Assembly: GCF_007993935.1 (NCBI RefSeq)
Contig: NZ_VITY01000002.1
Span: 248,001 to 312,000, forward strand
Source: Bradyrhizobium macuxiense
Lineage (GTDB): Bacteria > Pseudomonadota > Alphaproteobacteria > Rhizobiales > Xanthobacteraceae
Direction of reading: 5' to 3'
Length of the DNA: 64,000 nucleotides
Of this stretch, positions 19,817 to 26,606 are shown piece by piece. The translations under genes and the position numbers were made by a program. Below the pieces are notes generated by a model that saw nothing but the letters and a program-made list of their open reading frames with translations, was not told the origin of the DNA and searched no databases. How positions within the stretch are numbered: position 1 is the stretch's first letter; each line of letters opens with the position of its first letter.

Positions 19817-19848
19817 GTAGGGCGGATTAGCCGAAGGCGTAATCCGCC
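19817..19848. repeat. Left inverted repeat flanking the REP-associated transposase
   Basis: A 32-base sequence beginning GTAGGGCGGATTAGCC and ending GTAATCCGCC. It is the exact reverse complement of 20422-20453, and each copy can itself fold into a hairpin (GGCGGATT/AATCCGCC arms). Confidence 0.92.
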
Positions 19849-19861
19849 ATTCCCTCGGGGA

Positions 19862-20395
19862 TCATTGCCGTTCGCCGAAGTCACCGCTCATCGCGACGTC
19901 ACCACCCCAGTCGTCCGGGAACACTCCTGCGCGGACGTCGCGATGAAACGACGAGTGCGGCCAGTCACACACCCGCGCGACATGACGATGCTTCAGCGGA
20001 TTGATGTAGCAATACTCGATGTGACGCACGTAATCAGTCTCGTCACGGATCAGGTGCTCCCAGAACCGACGTTGCCAAATTCCGCGTTCGTTGCGGGCGG
20101 TGCGAACGTCGCTGAGCTTTTCATGTCTTGGAAGGGCTCTTGCGAAGCGGTTCTTGACCAGTCGCCAGCGCGTCGAGAAATCGGTGTCGCCGGGCGGCAA
20201 AGTCCAGACCGCGTGCAGATGATCGGGCAGGATGACGAATGCGTCGATCGTGAAGGCATAATCCCGGCGTGTCGCCGCAACGGCGTTGCGCAATTCCGCA
20301 ATGTGATCTACGAGCAAGGTTTGTCGCCGGTCCAGCAGGTTGACCGTAAAGAACCAACAACCACCGGGGATGAATGCGCGACGATAATTCGGCAT
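19862..20395 (-). CDS. REP-associated tyrosine transposase (RAYT, IS200-like)
   Basis: The protein has 177 residues, typical for RAYTs. The HUH metal motif is DHLHAVW (His59, His61). The likely catalytic tyrosine is Tyr130 in YCYINPLKH, the family signature. GGCWFFTVNLLDRR at the N-terminus is also characteristic. These single-copy domesticated transposases bind and cleave REP-type palindromes as single strands. Here the gene is flanked by a perfect pair of inverted 32-base palindromes, its probable substrate. No frameshift or stop is seen, so it is likely active. Confidence 0.93.
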   Translation of the reverse strand: MPNYRRAFIPGGCWFFTVNLLDRRQTLLVDHIAELRNAVAATRRDYAFTIDAFVILPDHLHAVWTLPPGDTDFSTRWRLVKNRFARALPRHEKLSDVRTARNERGIWQRRFWEHLIRDETDYVRHIEYCYINPLKHRHVARVCDWPHSSFHRDVRAGVFPDDWGGDVAMSGDFGERQ

Positions 20396-20421
20396 GAGCT
20401 TTCACGTCGGTTGAACTGAAC

Positions 20422-20453
20422 GGCGGATTACGCCTTCGGCTAATCCGCCCTAC
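20422..20453. repeat. Right inverted repeat flanking the REP-associated transposase
   Basis: This is a 32-base perfect reverse complement of 19817-19848. It lies 26 bases upstream of the RAYT start and 16 bases past the end of dnaE2. Confidence 0.92.
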
Positions 20454-20469
20454 AATTCTGGTGATCCCC

Positions 20470-23400
20470 TCAATGGAAATCGCGTGACGGCGGCAGGATG
20501 CGGACGTTGCGGGGGTGGCGGATCCTTTGCGGCGAGTTGTCGCCGTGATCGCGGCGGTCGTCGTTGAGCGGCTCGATCAAGGCCGGGCCCGCCGGCACCG
20601 GGTGCTTGCTGGCGAGGGGCTCATTGGCGAGGCCGATCAGATCGTGGGAGCGGTCGGTCATGCGCTGCGCCACCAGATGCGTCACGCCCTCCGGGCTGCT
20701 CTGGATATAGCCCTCGACCAGGATCAGGCGCGCGCCCATCACCTCCTTGCGGTACTGCTCCATCACCTTCGGCCACACCACGATGTTGGCGATGCCGGTC
20801 TCGTCCTCCAGCGTCATGAACACGACGCCCTTGGCGCTGCCCGGCCGCTGCCGCACCAGCACCACGCCGGCGCAACGGACGCGGCGGCGGTCGTTGCCTT
20901 GATTGATGCTGTTGCAGGCGACGACGCGCTCTTTGGTGAACATCTCGCGCAGGAATTCCATCGGGTGGCCCTTCAGCGACAGGCGGATGGTCTGATAGTC
21001 GGCGACCACCTGCTCGGGGCGCGGCATCTCCGGCAGCGGTTCTGCGCCCTCATCCGGCTGCTCGCGCGCGGTCGCGGCCTCGAACAGCGGCAGCGGCACG
21101 TCGTCGGGCAGCCGCCGCACCGCCCACAGCGCCTCGCGGCGGTCGAGCCCGAGCGAGCGGAACGCATCGGCATCGGCGAGCAGGATCAGCGCGCGCTTGG
21201 GCAGAGCGGTATCGCGGGCGAAATCCTCCAGCGAGGCGAACGGCCGGCGGTTGCGCGCGGCGACGATGCGGTCGGCCCAGTCGAGCTCATCTCCGTCCAA
21301 GGCCGCGCGGGAGGTGGGCGGGTTCCCTCCCCCCTTGCGGGGTCCGAGGCGAGCAAAGCTCGCTCTCGAGGTTAGGGAGAGGGGTAAGCCGCACGGGCGG
21401 TGGTCGTGGCTTACCCCTCTCTCCAACTCTCCCCCGCAAGGGGGGAGAGAGCCCATCCGTTCGTGCCTTCCTGACTCATAAACATCTACGCTTCGCGTGC
21501 CCCGGAATGACGACTGGAGGGACTTCAACCTCTCCTCGTCCTCATCCAGCCAATGAAACCCGTCGATCTGGCGGAAGCCGAGCCGCACCGCGCAGTGATC
21601 GCCGACCTGCTCCTCCAGCGTGTTCTGCGCAAAGCTGAAGGAGACATCGACCTCGCGCACCGTGACGCCGTTCTTGCGGGCGTCGCCGACGATCTGCGCC
21701 GGGGCATAAAAGCCCATCGGCTGCGAGTTGAGCAAGCCGCAGCAGAACGCATCGGGATGATAGTGCTTCAGCCATGAGGAGATGTAGACAAGCTGCGCGA
21801 AGCTCGCGGCGTGGCTTTCCGGGAAGCCGTAACTGCCAAACCCCTTGATCTGGTCGAAGCAGCTGCGGGCGAAGTCCGGATCGTAACCGCGCGCCACCAT
21901 GTTGCCGACCAGCTTCTCTTCATAGCTGCCGATGGTACCGACGTTGCGGAAGGTCGCCATCGAGCGGCGCAGGCCGTTGGCCTCTTCGGAGGTGAACTTT
22001 GCCGCCTCGATCGCGATCCGCATCGCCTGCTCCTGGAATAGCGGCACGCCGAGCGTCTTGTGCAGGACATTGTGGAGTTCATCCGGCGGGCCGTGCTCGG
22101 GCGCCGGCGATGGATAGCTTTCCTTCTCGACACCATTCCGCCGCCGCAAATACGGATGCACCATGTCGCCCTGGATCGGCCCGGGGCGTACGATCGCAAC
22201 CTCGATGACGAGATCGTAGAAAGTGCGCGGCTTCAAACGCGGCAGCATATTCATTTGCGCCCGGCTCTCGACCTGGAACACGCCGAGCGACTCGCCGCGA
22301 CACAGCATGTCGTAGACTTTTTTGTCGTCCTGCGGGACCGAGGCGAGCTCCCAGCGCTCGCCCTTGTGGTCATCGATCAGGTCGAAACATTTGCGGATGC
22401 AGGTCAGCATGCCGAGCGCAAGCACGTCGACCTTCATCATATGCAGCGCGTCGACGTCGTCCTTGTCCCATTCGATGAAGGTGCGGTCGTCCATCGCAGC
22501 GTTGCCGATCGGCACATAGGTGTCGAGCCGGTCCTGGGTCAGCACATAGCCGCCGACATGTTGCGAGAGATGGCGTGGAAATTCGATCAGTTCGGTGGCG
22601 AGCTCGACCGCGAGGTTGATCATCGCATTCTTTGGATCGAGCCCGGCCTGCCGCACCTGCATGTCGTTGAGGCCCTTGCCCCAGCTGCCCCACACGGTGT
22701 CGGCGAGCGCCGCGGTGACGTCCTCGGTCAGCCCGAGCGCCTTGCCGACGTCGCGGATCGCGCTGCGCGGGCGATAATGGATGATGGTGGCGATGATGGC
22801 AGCGCGGTGGCGGCCGTAGCGGCGATAGACATATTGCATCACCTCCTCGCGCCGCGAATGCTCGAAATCGACGTCGATGTCCGGCGGCTCCAGCCGCTCC
22901 TTGGAAATGAAGCGCTCGAACAACAGATCGACCTTGGTCGGATCGACCGAGGTGACGCCGAGCACGTAGCACACTGCCGAATTCGCCGCCGAGCCGCGCC
23001 CCTGGCACAGGATGTTCTGGCTGCGCGCATAGCGCACGATGTCGTGCACGGTGAGGAAGTAATGCGCGTATTTCAGCTCGGCGATCAGCGCGAGCTCCTT
23101 GTTCAAGGTGGCGCGAAGTTTTTCGTCGATCTCGCCGCCGAAATATTTGTCGACGCCGGCCCAGGTCAGGTCCTCGAGATGCTGCTGCGCGGTCTTGCCC
23201 GGCGGCACCGGCTCATCGGGATACTGGTATTTGAGCTGGTCGAGCGAGAACGAGATGCGTTTGGCGAAGCGCATGGTCTCCGTGATCGCGTCCGGCAGAT
23301 CGCGAAACAGCCTGATCATTTCATGCGCCGGCTTGAGATGCCGCTCGGCATTGGCCTCGAGCCTGCGGCCGACAGCCTCGATCGTGGTCTTTTCGCGGAT

Positions 23401-24045
23401 GCAGGTCAGCACATCCTGCAGCGGGCGGCGCGCAGGATGGTGATAGAGCACCTCGTTGGTGGCGAGCAGCGGCACACCGGCATCGGTGGCGAGGCCATGC
23501 AGCCGTGCGAGACGGCGCCTGTCGTCGCCGCGATAGAGCAGGCTTGCGGCAAGCCAGACACCGTCGGCGGCGCTGGCCTTCAGTTGCGCGAGCACGCCGA
23601 GCGCGTCATCAGTCTCGAAACGATGCGGCAGCGTCAGCACCAAAAGCTGACCTTCGGCGAAATCGACGAGATCAGGCAAAGTGAGACGGCAATCACCCTT
23701 CTCGACGCGCTCGATGCCAGCACCGCGCTTGCCGCGGGTCAGCAATTGGCACAGCCGGCCGTAGGCGGCGCGGTCGCGCGGATAGACCAGGATATCGGGC
23801 GTGCCGTCGATGAAGACGATGCGGGCGCCGACCAGGAACTTGGACGGATGGGCGACCTTCTCGCTGTCGAGCTCCTTCCAGGCGCGCACCACGCCGGCCA
23901 GCGTGTTGTGATCGGCGATCCCGATCACGGGGATTCCGAGTTCGCTCGCCTGATGCACATAGGCGCGCGGATCGGAGCCGCCGCGCAGGAAGGAGAAATT
24001 GCTGGTGATGCCGATCTCGGCATAATCGAGCGCTGGCATCGTCAT
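20470..24045 (-). CDS. dnaE2: Error-prone DNA polymerase III alpha subunit DnaE2
   Basis: The 1191 residues include an N-terminal PHP domain (YAEIGITSNFSFLRGGSDP, GIADHNTLAGVVRAW), the polymerase palm with catalytic aspartates at 389, 391 and 393 (PPDIDVDFEHSRREEV), a helix-hairpin-helix region and a C-terminal OB fold (VRCAGVVLVRQRPGSAKGVVF). It performs translesion synthesis in the SOS response with ImuA and ImuB. Its start overlaps the imuB stop by four bases. Residues about 840-918 are an extra Gly/Pro/Ser/Arg-rich segment encoded by a palindromic repeat (21320-21454) plus a second repeat-like piece, inserted between EDEERL and DWADRIVAARN. The frame stays open, so function is probably retained. 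Confidence 0.95.
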   Translation of the reverse strand: MTMPALDYAEIGITSNFSFLRGGSDPRAYVHQASELGIPVIGIADHNTLAGVVRAWKELDSEKVAHPSKFLVGARIVFIDGTPDILVYPRDRAAYGRLCQLLTRGKRGAGIERVEKGDCRLTLPDLVDFAEGQLLVLTLPHRFETDDALGVLAQLKASAADGVWLAASLLYRGDDRRRLARLHGLATDAGVPLLATNEVLYHHPARRPLQDVLTCIREKTTIEAVGRRLEANAERHLKPAHEMIRLFRDLPDAITETMRFAKRISFSLDQLKYQYPDEPVPPGKTAQQHLEDLTWAGVDKYFGGEIDEKLRATLNKELALIAELKYAHYFLTVHDIVRYARSQNILCQGRGSAANSAVCYVLGVTSVDPTKVDLLFERFISKERLEPPDIDVDFEHSRREEVMQYVYRRYGRHRAAIIATIIHYRPRSAIRDVGKALGLTEDVTAALADTVWGSWGKGLNDMQVRQAGLDPKNAMINLAVELATELIEFPRHLSQHVGGYVLTQDRLDTYVPIGNAAMDDRTFIEWDKDDVDALHMMKVDVLALGMLTCIRKCFDLIDDHKGERWELASVPQDDKKVYDMLCRGESLGVFQVESRAQMNMLPRLKPRTFYDLVIEVAIVRPGPIQGDMVHPYLRRRNGVEKESYPSPAPEHGPPDELHNVLHKTLGVPLFQEQAMRIAIEAAKFTSEEANGLRRSMATFRNVGTIGSYEEKLVGNMVARGYDPDFARSCFDQIKGFGSYGFPESHAASFAQLVYISSWLKHYHPDAFCCGLLNSQPMGFYAPAQIVGDARKNGVTVREVDVSFSFAQNTLEEQVGDHCAVRLGFRQIDGFHWLDEDEERLKSLQSSFRGTRSVDVYESGRHERMGSLPPCGGELERGVSHDHRPCGLPLSLTSRASFARLGPRKGGGNPPTSRAALDGDELDWADRIVAARNRRPFASLEDFARDTALPKRALILLADADAFRSLGLDRREALWAVRRLPDDVPLPLFEAATAREQPDEGAEPLPEMPRPEQVVADYQTIRLSLKGHPMEFLREMFTKERVVACNSINQGNDRRRVRCAGVVLVRQRPGSAKGVVFMTLEDETGIANIVVWPKVMEQYRKEVMGARLILVEGYIQSSPEGVTHLVAQRMTDRSHDLIGLANEPLASKHPVPAGPALIEPLNDDRRDHGDNSPQRIRHPRNVRILPPSRDFH
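21320..21454. repeat. Long palindromic repeat inserted inside dnaE2
   Basis: The left arm begins GGGTTCCCTCCCCCCTTGC and the right arm ends GGGGGGAGAGAGCCC, complementary over about 45 bases with a short loop. It is the same element as 25567-25676 in imuB, but carries about 25 extra bases (around 21343-21370) that contain a small hairpin GCGAGC-AAA-GCTCGC. It encodes residues about 864-909 of DnaE2. Confidence 0.9.
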
Positions 24046-25832
24046 GCGAACAGCCCGTGCACATACCAGTTGGCCGGAACGGACTTCCCCTCTTCGTCCC
24101 GCAGCTCGTTCTCATAGAGCCCGTCGCGAAAGATCCAGAAGCGCTGGCCCTCGGCATCCTCGACGCGGAAATAGTCGCGCGTCAGCGCCGCGCCGTCCTG
24201 CTTCCACCATTCCATCGCGATGCGCTCGGGACCCTCGACCCGCACCACCGCATGCAAGGCACGCCGCCAGGTGAATTGATGCGGCGGACCGTCCGGCACA
24301 CTCGCGAACGGCACCTTGATCGGCTCGGGCCGCTCGAACAGCCTGAGCGGCCGCAGCGGCGGCTCGCCGGTGACGCGCTCCGGCCAGGCGGCGGCGCTGG
24401 CGGCGGCCAGATGATGCTGCGCCGGCAGCGCGAGCGCCGCGCGCTCGGGGATATGGCTCTCCAGCGGCAGATGCACGACGACGCGTTTGCCGCCGATGCG
24501 GGCGGCAATGCGGTCGATCAGCGCCGAGATCTCGTCATTGTCGTGCACGGTGGTGTCGAGGTCGCGCTGCTGCTGCACCACGATCTCGGTACGCCCTGCG
24601 GCAAGGCGAATGAGATCGAAGCCGAAGCCGGGATCGAGCGGATCGTTGAGCGCATCAAGCCGCTCGCGGAACAGGCGGTCGATCATCTCGGGCCGCGTCA
24701 CCGGACGCCCGGTCTCGACCATGATCGCGCGCACCGCACCGTCGGTGCGGAAGAAGCTAGCTTCCAATTGCCGCGCGCCCTTGCCCTGCTTGTCCATCGC
24801 CGCAACCAGCATTTTGGCGAGGCTCGACAGCGTCAGCGCGATCACGGTGTCGGTCGCGATCGGTTCGGGGAAACGCTTCTCGACGATGTAATCGGGCAGC
24901 GGCTTGCGCGGGCTGATCGGGGCATCGCCCTGCCCGAGCGCGTGGCTGAGCAAGGCGGTGAAGGCCGCGCCGAACCGCGCCGAGATCTCATGCGGCGCGC
25001 GCGCGGCGACATCGCCGATGGTCTTCAAGCCGGCGCGGCGAAGGCCGGTGGTCACAGCGCTATCTGCGCCGAGCGCCGACACCGGCAGCGGGCCGACCGC
25101 CTGCGCCTCTGTGCCATCGACGACGATCTTGCCCGAGACGTGGCGCGTCAGCGTGCGCGCCGCGATCGAGGTGCCGGCAATCGCCGCGCTGACCGCAAAG
25201 CCGCGCCGGCTCAGCGCATTGGTCACGATCTGCAGCAGCGCGCGCTCGCCGCCGAACAGGTGCGCGCAGCCGGTGATGTCGAGGAACAATCCATAGGGTG
25301 CGTCGAGCGCGACCAGCGGCGTGAAGCGGTCGCACCAGTCGGCGATATCGTTCAGCGTCTTCAGATCGGCGGCGGGATCGGCGTCGTAGACCGTAAGCTC
25401 CGGGCAGATCGCCCGCGCATTGGCGAGCGGCAGCCCGATCGACAGCCCGGCCCGCACCGCGGCCTCGTCGACGGCATGGAGCAGGATCGCGTTGTGGTCT
25501 TTTGCGACCACGACGCTGGGGAGTTCCGCTTGCTTCGCCTCGTTCGTAAGGGATGCATGGACGGATGGGTTCCCTCCCCCCTTGCGGGGGAGGGTTAGGG
25601 AGAGGGGTAAGCCGCTCGGGCGGTGCTCGTGGCCACCCCTCTCTCCAACTCTCCCCCGCAAGGGGGGAGAGAGCCCTGCCGATGTGCTCACCTCACACGA
25701 AGGTTCATCCACTTCCCGCGTCTCAGCTTGCGAGGCGGTGTCCTGCGCGAGCTTGCGCTTGATGCGGTCGATGGGCAGGCGTGGCAGCCACAGGCTGAGG
25801 ATACGCCGACGGTTCACTGAATTGGCACTCAT
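24042..25832 (-). CDS. imuB: ImuB, Y-family polymerase-like mutasome subunit
   Basis: The protein has 596 residues from the ATG at 25832 (MSANSVNRRRILSLWLPRL). Y-family landmarks are SVVVAKDHNAILLHAVDEAAVRAGL, LANARAICPELTVYDADP, the helix-hairpin-helix TIGDVAARAPHEISARFG, and a little-finger domain. ImuB lacks the polymerase acidic triad and acts as the hub joining the beta clamp, ImuA and DnaE2. Residues about 53-89 are coded by a palindromic repeat (25567-25676) between the first two core strands; the frame is kept. The start lies within the last 110 bases of imuA, and the end overlaps dnaE2 by four. Confidence 0.93.
   Translation of the reverse strand: MSANSVNRRRILSLWLPRLPIDRIKRKLAQDTASQAETREVDEPSCEVSTSAGLSPPLRGRVGERGGHEHRPSGLPLSLTLPRKGGGNPSVHASLTNEAKQAELPSVVVAKDHNAILLHAVDEAAVRAGLSIGLPLANARAICPELTVYDADPAADLKTLNDIADWCDRFTPLVALDAPYGLFLDITGCAHLFGGERALLQIVTNALSRRGFAVSAAIAGTSIAARTLTRHVSGKIVVDGTEAQAVGPLPVSALGADSAVTTGLRRAGLKTIGDVAARAPHEISARFGAAFTALLSHALGQGDAPISPRKPLPDYIVEKRFPEPIATDTVIALTLSSLAKMLVAAMDKQGKGARQLEASFFRTDGAVRAIMVETGRPVTRPEMIDRLFRERLDALNDPLDPGFGFDLIRLAAGRTEIVVQQQRDLDTTVHDNDEISALIDRIAARIGGKRVVVHLPLESHIPERAALALPAQHHLAAASAAAWPERVTGEPPLRPLRLFERPEPIKVPFASVPDGPPHQFTWRRALHAVVRVEGPERIAMEWWKQDGAALTRDYFRVEDAEGQRFWIFRDGLYENELRDEEGKSVPANWYVHGLFA
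25567..25676. repeat. Long palindromic repeat inserted inside imuB
   Basis: This 110-base element begins GGGTTCCCTCCCCCC and ends GGGGAGAGAGCCC with long complementary arms. It matches the copy in dnaE2 apart from that copy's internal extra piece and a two-base difference near the loop. Read on the minus strand it gives a Pro/Gly/Arg-rich peptide. Confidence 0.9.
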
Positions 25833-26517
25833 CACATTTCCATTCCATGATCCATCGCCCGACCGGGCCATGACGATTGCGCACGAGTTCGGCCTCGACG
25901 CGCGGCGCGCCCCAAGGGCTCGCGGCATTGCCGGGCGGCGAATGCGCTGCGCGCACGATCCAGCGCGTTTCCGCGGTCGAGGGAATTGGCGTTGCCGCGA
26001 TCCGCAGCACTAGCGCGGTGACGCCGGAGGCTTGCGCGGCCAGGGTCAATTTGCGGCTGGCGACGAGATCGAGCTGGCGCGCCTGGCCCCAGATCTCGAG
26101 CACGACGGCGCCGAGCGCATCGCAGGCGAGCGCGTCGGCCGCGGTGCGCAGGCCGCTGTCGACATCGGCGGCGCGCACCGTGACCAGGAGGCGCGGATCG
26201 AGGCCGAGCTCGGCGAGCCCGCGCATCGACAGCGCGCCGTTCTCGCGATCGGAGAAATCCTGCCGCACCCAGACCAGCGGCTTGCGCGCTGATATCCGTC
26301 CGGCGAGCCCCGCGATGAACCCGGTCGCAGCGCCGCCCTGATGGCTGGCCGCGAACACCTCGTGCAGCACGGCCGGCGCAAGCCCGCCGCGCAACATCGC
26401 GTCCGCGCCGGCATGACCGAGCGCGATGCGGTTCGGCATCGCCGCATCCGATGGCGCCTCGATGCGCGCGATGCTGCCGCGCAGAGACGCAAGCGTACCC
26501 GTGCGTGCGCCGTTCAT
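25723..26517 (-). CDS. imuA: ImuA, RecA-like mutasome protein
   Basis: The protein has 264 residues from the ATG at 26517. It shows the ImuA pattern: IALGHAGADAMLRGGLAPAVLHEVFA, FIAGLAGRISARKPLVWVRQDF, LGAVVLEIWGQARQLDLVASRKLTLAAQASGVTAL, and a C-terminal WIMEWKCDECQF segment. It is first in the imuA-imuB-dnaE2 operon and should be induced by DNA damage through the SOS box at 26592-26606, 75 bases upstream. Its last 110 bases overlap imuB. Confidence 0.92.
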   Translation of the reverse strand: MNGARTGTLASLRGSIARIEAPSDAAMPNRIALGHAGADAMLRGGLAPAVLHEVFAASHQGGAATGFIAGLAGRISARKPLVWVRQDFSDRENGALSMRGLAELGLDPRLLVTVRAADVDSGLRTAADALACDALGAVVLEIWGQARQLDLVASRKLTLAAQASGVTALVLRIAATPIPSTAETRWIVRAAHSPPGNAASPWGAPRVEAELVRNRHGPVGRWIMEWKCDECQFSEPSAYPQPVAATPAHRPHQAQARAGHRLAS

Positions 26518-26591
26518 GATGCGCCGCTCCTTCTCAATCAAAATTTGAGGCCGTCACTGACCAGAACAGAGAACCAGGGACTGGCCCATTT

Positions 26592-26606
26592 GTTCATGGT
26601 ATGTTC
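26592..26606. promoter_or_regulatory. LexA-binding SOS box
   Basis: GTTC-ATGGTAT-GTTC is a perfect match to the alphaproteobacterial LexA site GTTC-N7-GTTC. It lies 75 bases before imuA and 168 before the divergent UdgX gene, in an AT-rich stretch. It surely controls the mutasome operon and might also repress the divergent gene. Confidence 0.88.

Follow-up and report, generated by a model that had tools for sequence, protein, structure and literature searches.

An in-frame hairpin repeat in imuB, dnaE2 and two further DNA-damage-response genes of Bradyrhizobium macuxiense

Palindromic elements of Rickettsia measure about 100-150 bp and account for 30-50 added residues. A palindromic repeat of like kind, called here the main repeat, lies in frame inside imuB and dnaE2, two genes of a mutagenesis cassette, in a 64,000-nucleotide stretch of Bradyrhizobium macuxiense DNA (contig NZ_VITY01000002.1, positions 248,001 to 312,000; hereafter, the window). 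The Rickettsia elements are described in PMC3733652 (Di Nocera et al. 2013; accessible text) as in-frame palindromes inside open genes. The same text reports repetitive extragenic palindromes (REPs) of the GTAG and CGTC classes within genes, many of them serving replication and repair; DnaE2 is named, and a DNA ligase of O. terrae is among the REP-bearing genes. Its authors doubt that chance is responsible and propose mutator effects. The presence of REPs inside repair genes, DnaE2 included, is already known from this work. In Bradyrhizobium itself, the accessible part of PMC5082802 describes Br-REP1 and Br-REP2 in 3′ untranslated and intergenic regions.

On balance, the main repeat probably represents a family whose members are paired hairpins, likely mobile and non-autonomous; it sits in frame in loops of four damage-response genes, would be translated there as a disordered linker and is most likely tolerated rather than needed. 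This reading is based on the repeat copies and their open frames, their absence in many relatives, the recurrence of several repeat families in the same loops and the near-absence of such inserts in control genes.

The repeat inside imuB and dnaE2

The host genome (8.82 Mb, G000 below; closest named relatives, Bradyrhizobium) carries imuA, imuB and dnaE2 consecutively, all on the minus strand. Lengths are given in amino acids (aa) where they concern proteins. The two host genes and the repeat features within them are the following.

20470..24045, minus strand: dnaE2 (imuC), error-prone DNA polymerase, 1191 aa; full-length match to NF004225 (1566 bits, cut-off 939)
24042..25832, minus strand: imuB; its open reading frame (ORF) opens at 25928, with the probable start at 25832
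25567..25676, minus strand: palindromic repeat core inside imuB, recognized from the repeat pair, own-genome matches and folding
about 25546..25696, minus strand: probable full imuB element with outer arms GTGAGGTGAGCAC ... GCATCCCTTAC (gene strand), its ends placed by eye from own-genome copies
21320..21454, minus strand: palindromic repeat core inside dnaE2, recognized from the repeat pair, own-genome matches and folding
21343..21369, minus strand: smaller palindrome of 27 bp nested within the dnaE2 copy (by eye)
21489..21513, minus strand: CGTC-type REP half CGTCATTCCGGGG after the dnaE2 copy, assigned to the CGTC class as given in the accessible text of PMC3733652

A preliminary description of the window had placed the same palindrome at these two sites and considered both genes unbroken, and both statements are borne out. 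The ImuB ORF of 628 aa (596 aa from the probable ATG) is open throughout, as is DnaE2, and shows Y-family IMS, IMS_C and, weakly, DUF6504 domains. A 21-nt core pattern (up to 3 mismatches) is found three times in the window and never in 100 shuffles, and the imuB core has 134 matches in its own genome, both strands and half-units being counted. RNA folding of the two copies gives −97 to −112 kcal/mol, with z-scores of −8.9 to −10.7 (200 shuffles each). The left halves of the copies are read in different frames, as had been pointed out. An open frame alone is weak evidence, because 85 of 222 frames of this GC-rich repeat (37 copies outside the window, six frames each) are free of stops.

In ImuB the insert occupies approximately residues 36-103, between the first helix and a strand reading VVVAK; in DnaE2 it occupies approximately residues 844-920 and splits the helix-hairpin-helix region. 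When lengths are taken from the first conserved motif onward, ImuB of the window has 589 aa versus a commonest length of 523 (+66 aa), and DnaE2 has 1184 aa versus 1119 (+65 aa). The extra residues are confined to one loop per protein, and the alignment of relatives agrees with the earlier statement that the inserts lie between conserved segments. Both inserts would be disordered according to structure prediction, because their predicted local distance difference test (pLDDT) values are very low. Block means are 30-42 for the ImuB insert, compared with more than 90 over most of that protein's polymerase core, and 22-31 for the DnaE2 insert.

Among 106 half-units from the fetched host loci and the window, a paired stem change, CTCTCC/GGAGAG, marks just two, of which imuB and dnaE2 hold one each. 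Since this variant occurs in no other complete unit examined, probably either one gene received its copy from the other, across 4 kb, or a single small subfamily gave rise to both. In the dnaE2 inserts of two relatives (loci L089 and L129), the arm with the stem variant is on the opposite side and the outer flanks are alike (by eye); compared with the window, the DnaE2 hairpin has apparently flipped at its site without loss of the reading frame.

Further host genes and recurrent occupation of the same loops

BLAST and pattern searches of the host genome, a step already proposed in the preliminary description, locate the main repeat at no fewer than 55 places, namely 53 outside the window and two inside; the BLAST search scored 40 of 72 first candidates, and further places may exist. 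Only four of the 55 places found lie in an open frame that is flanked left and right by coding signal: imuB, dnaE2 and two others.

G000:C9:83913-84034: copy in a "cisplatin damage response" ATP-dependent DNA ligase (TIGR04120, 807.5 bits)
G000:C9:88463-88606: copy in a ligase-associated DEXH helicase (TIGR04121, 1104.5 bits)

The two-sided coding scores are 30.3 for the ligase and 16.3 for the helicase, and none of the remaining 51 places outside the window, one of them at a contig end, exceeds 3.5; the two window copies are classed as in-gene from their ORFs and the alignment of relatives, not from this score. The first gene calling had rendered the helicase copy intergenic, which was overturned by a frame scan. 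All four in-gene copies found lie in DNA-damage-response genes. They are not independent draws, because the hosts form two neighbouring pairs, imuB/dnaE2 and ligase/helicase (gene clusters C2 and C9).

Structurally, 28 of 38 merged places span at least 160 bp with units on opposite strands, and are thus paired inverted hairpin units. With regard to the terminal inverted repeats that would mark a miniature inverted-repeat transposable element (MITE), many copies are bordered left and right by imperfect GTGAGG-GAGCAC outer arms (by eye, unscored). A second hairpin family has 8 pattern matches in the host genome. Rfam gave 8 matches, all under the curated cut-offs and mostly to animal miRNA models, and these are taken as chance.

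The distribution in relatives was followed in 80 loci: the window plus 79 named loci, each bearing all or part of the cassette, from 588 relatives of which the best 80 were retained. The ImuB set comprises 74 loci; the remaining six have a split gene (L131, L137) or lack the start motif through a contig cut or a broken gene (L072, L115, L128, L133). The DnaE2 set comprises 66; of the other 14, eight are short (L098, L100, L104, L112, L115, L116, L118, L128), five are split or lack the start motif (L067, L085, L119, L140, L141) and L106 has no match. A DnaE2 protein search, in which the best 120 of 7997 matches were almost all from close relatives, does not enter the counts.

With seeds for several families, repeats are recognized in 25 of the 74 loops of ImuB and 44 of the 66 of DnaE2, and in none of these 140 when read backwards. 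Besides the main repeat and a CT-rich hairpin related to it, CGTC-REP dimers and two or more further families occur; CGTC seeds alone account for 25 of the 66 DnaE2 loops, and the three CT-rich seed sets cross-match and are pooled on the tree. The comparison with homologues, which the preliminary description had called for, finds the inserts missing in many relatives. A tree made by a quick method from 78 rows, based on the two proteins outside these loops and with weak support at 24 of its 75 inner branches, requires a minimum of 14 changes for ImuB and, for DnaE2, 22 in family state or 10 in presence only, gain and loss being indistinguishable. Repeats also lie inside or beside repeats, as for the CGTC piece next to the main element in the window dnaE2 and next to the second family in L135. 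That CGTC piece resembles the CGTC-REPs sitting in the DnaE2 loop of many relatives, and palindromes resembling the nested 27-bp one are seen by eye in the ImuB-loop repeats of L064, L067, L069, L071, L113 and L135.

Among the 62 loci readable for both proteins, 19 carry repeats in both, 4 in ImuB only, 23 in DnaE2 only and 16 in neither; linked occupation was considered and is not significant (Fisher p 0.09). The special weight that the preliminary description gave to two subunits of one mutagenesis machine is accordingly not upheld, as the ligase and the helicase are hosts as well.

Several side observations belong to these loops. Another repeat, coding SSEVGTGSREENASKQ or similar, is present in the ImuB loops of L074, L076, L078, L100-L103, L109 and L124, and in L063 it occupies a different DnaE2 site, about residue 102 from the start motif. 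The cassette of L130, titled Frankia sp. RB7, groups among Bradyrhizobium in the tree, and the record name looks wrong. Genes split over two frames are found for ImuB in L137 and L131 and for DnaE2 in L067, L085 and L119, apparently with the splits outside the repeat loops; natural loss of the mutasome and sequencing errors are both possible.

A survey of 31 genomes of the genus extends the pattern to the second gene pair; here the palindromic nature of the inserts is judged by eye, and for the ligase also by arm alignment. The ligase loop carries in-frame inserts of 43-112 aa in 17 genomes, is empty in 12, holds one out-of-frame copy (G006) and is cut by a contig end in one (G003), which gives inserts in 18 of 30 readable genomes. 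On the ligase tree it changed state at least 11 times, a count that omits L253 (empty, missed by the pattern) and L277 (contig-cut). The helicase loop is empty in 20 genomes (33-38 aa), filled in frame in 9 (60-139 aa) and out of frame in one (G027), with inserts in 10 of 30 readable genomes; G016 has no full gene. The out-of-frame loops (L302 in G027, L308 in G006) may be failed insertions, later frameshifts or base-run sequencing errors.

The control genes for DnaE1, DinB and UvrA are free of such inserts. DnaE2 exceeds its family profile by 77-79 aa in 5 of 30 genomes and by 94-156 aa in 25, whereas DnaE1 exceeds its own by 36-41 aa in 30 of 30, without insert. G016, whose DnaE1 is in two pieces and which lacks a complete standard DnaE2, is excluded from this comparison, as are the second DnaE2-like genes of G014 and G016. 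No insert is seen in DinB (best match 1245-1257 nt) or UvrA (2814-2838 nt) in any of the 31 genomes. In a scan of the 80 loci for palindromes with perfect arms within 130 nt, those with 14-bp arms number 13 in imuB (137 kb; 0.095/kb), 30 in dnaE2 (258 kb; 0.116/kb), two in other flanking genes (665 kb; 0.003/kb; both look like chance), none in imuA (44 kb) and 57 in intergenic DNA (149 kb; 0.38/kb), as counted with crude flank gene calls, related rows and flanking genes that are a sample of the genome. In the same order, the counts are 12, 20, 0, 0 and 33 with 16-bp arms and 32, 42, 23, 7 and 111 with 12-bp arms.

Apparent homogenisation of the arms and the competing explanations

The ligase inserts provide a view of how the repeat changes once inside a gene. 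Arms were compared in 15 of the 17 in-frame inserts, those with both arms complete (L270 and L274 have partial or replaced arms). They are 90-91% alike between genomes, versus 68% for the fourfold sites of the ligase and a mean of 52% for the insert centre, and they are more alike than the fourfold sites in 105 of 105 pairs. One arm position is either A or G. The ligase arms have A in G005, G014, G026 and G017 (the left arm of G017 has one further change, and its A is read by eye), and in these genomes exact copies with A number 11, 21, 7 and 18 versus 4, 0, 0 and 1 with G. Ten genomes have G-arm ligases and G dominant genome-wide, G025 being read from the left arm only. The ligase variant is therefore the majority variant of the genome in all 14 genomes with agreeing readable arms (Fisher p 0.001); up to two of the copies counted are arms of the ligase itself, and every majority persists when two are subtracted. 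G004 and G012 have one ligase arm of each kind, with genome copies mostly G. The A-type genomes do not form a single branch of the ligase tree, which has many weak branches. This arm pattern fits concerted evolution, by overwriting from other copies or by renewed insertion. The preliminary description had named, as a case that would speak against its own reading, inserts of the same sequence without repeat copies elsewhere; examined for the ligase only and with two arm variants, all 16 searched genomes with a ligase insert have copies beyond the ligase.

If the tolerated-linker reading is correct, the repeat would arrive by transposition and survive solely at sites where its cost stays low, namely variable linkers of proteins with an accessory function. 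The insert would be translated as a disordered linker, and its arms would later be overwritten by other copies through gene conversion or insertion of repeat into repeat.

A number of points weigh against this reading. Tolerance alone fails to explain why the hosts are damage-response genes only, as other accessory genes should have variable linkers too, and the four hosts may be just two events followed by local spread. No transposase for the main repeat was found in the host genome, both of its RAYT genes (REP-associated tyrosine transposases) being flanked by other palindromes. No target-site duplication could be established, since the loop of the nearest insert-free ImuB relative, L125, is too divergent to serve as an empty site. 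Two natural copies, in the helicase of G027 and the ligase of G006, are out of frame. The contrast is smaller with 12-bp arms (ImuB 0.233, DnaE2 0.163, ImuA 0.159 and other genes 0.035 per kb), and the predicted DnaE2 structure scores poorly as a whole (mean pLDDT 63.5; predicted template modelling score 0.39). The arm conservation could come from selection on the hairpin or the peptide. Finally, a truncated intergenic copy (G000:C10:12010-12102), 95% identical over 92 of 110 bases and too short for the half-unit scan, has part of the imuB/dnaE2 stem variant, which weakens the case for direct copying between these two genes.

The alternatives draw on three further features of the window.

25723..26541, minus strand: imuA (NF033429, 31 bits, under the cut-off of 150)
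26592..26606, plus strand: candidate LexA box GTTC-N7-GTTC, proposed from its position upstream of imuA
19862..20395, minus strand: RAYT gene, full match to NF047646 (187 bits, cut-off 80), 74 bp from dnaE2

The strongest of the alternatives, although unlikely in our estimation, is that the inserts are kept for function, with the hairpin or linker adjusting how strongly mutagenic and DNA-processing enzymes are expressed or how active they are, as a damper or mutator variant, an idea in line with the speculation of Di Nocera and colleagues in 2013. The restriction of the four in-gene copies to damage-response genes, the excess of arm likeness over fourfold sites in every ligase pair and the very stable predicted hairpins on the coding strand would all agree with it. 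Conversely, different repeat families serve at these sites, imuB and dnaE2 use different reading frames and many sister species lack the insert. Moreover, the arm variant follows the genome rather than the gene tree, so that homogenisation suffices and no selection on the gene is required.

It is less likely still that the repeat moves during DNA damage and prefers transcribed, open damage-response genes as targets. The identity of the four hosts and the candidate LexA box would suit this idea. The motif GTTC-N7-GTTC, which we take to be the LexA-box consensus, has one match in the window versus 1.59 expected by chance. Against the idea, imuA belongs to the same operon and has no palindrome with 14-bp arms, and the ligase and helicase loci have no exact GTTC-N7-GTTC. 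LexA control of these two loci was considered and rejected, with 2 one-mismatch matches each versus 3.7 and 3.9 expected.

Mobilisation of the main repeat as its REP by the RAYT beside dnaE2 is very doubtful. A full RAYT does lie next to dnaE2, and the host genome has two RAYT matches; by eye, however, both are flanked by other, GTAG-ended palindromes, and main-repeat copies have GTGAGG-type outer arms instead of GTAG ends. The neighbouring RAYT is rejected as the main mobiliser, its own flanking REPs being different. Around it, inverted GTAG REPs at 19817-19848 and 20423-20453 form a compact REPtron (19817-20453) just downstream of dnaE2. An artefact or decay, with pseudogenes or with inserts outside the real proteins, is highly improbable despite the out-of-frame copies of two relatives, as dnaE2, ligase and helicase are intact ORFs with full-length family matches, the inserts are internal and flanked by conserved parts, and the same sites are filled in many separately sequenced genomes.

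A bolder proposal, which seems to us improbable, is that palindromes are preferentially drawn into the linkers of damage-response proteins and kept current there by concerted evolution, so that they act as a brake or throttle on mutagenesis that can itself evolve. If it were true, a mobile repeat family would continually rewrite parts of the enzymes that set mutation and repair. To judge from the ligase arms, repeat copies located elsewhere in the genome may be able to overwrite a segment of a protein, a route of change distinct from point mutation and gene-to-gene recombination. REPs in repair genes, an unexplained remark since 2013, now become testable with four loops, sister species with and without inserts, several families per site and clean controls. 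If the inserts alter damage tolerance, closely related rhizobia would offer natural on/off pairs.

Comparison with known systems

Searches of the literature on palindromes in Bradyrhizobium and in frame, intragenic REPs of repair genes, repeats in imuB, Rickettsia elements, concerted evolution of REPs and palindromes in connection with error-prone polymerases, mostly in non-subscription sources, gave among the titles listed no further paper on the main element, on ImuB inserts or on homogenised in-gene arms. Within this literature, the element, three of its four hosts in this group, the genus-wide recurrence and the homogenised arms appear to be new.

Like the REPs of PMC3733652, which the accessible text places largely in repair genes among others, the main repeat is a palindrome that can lie within a gene without breaking its frame. 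Unlike those GTAG and CGTC REPs, it has neither a GTAG nor a CGTC end: no GTAG hairpin end is seen by eye, it does not flank a RAYT of its own, and it has no CGTC tag with an 8-9 bp stem, a description that the piece at 21489-21513 fits. ImuB is absent from the main text of PMC3733652, and the recurrence of several families in the same loop across one genus, together with arm homogenisation, is seen here and not in the accessible part of that account. With Br-REP1 and Br-REP2 it shares the genus and the nature of abundant palindromes, and Br-REP2 and the dnaE2 CGTC piece both contain CCCCGGAATGA; the consensus printed in the accessible part of PMC5082802 differs from the main element.

The two inverted hairpin units, variable centre and mostly intergenic location are shared with bacterial interspersed mosaic elements (BIMEs) and REP doublets forming hairpins (REPINs), from which the main element differs by its lack of a GTAG end, by units of approximately 85 bp versus 20-40 and by RAYT genes that are flanked by other repeats. 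The likeness to the Rickettsia palindromic elements, first drawn in the preliminary description, holds in kind. Here the host group is another, 51 of the 55 places found are outside genes and the in-gene copies are in damage-response genes; in both systems, palindromes are inserted in frame in genes that stay open.

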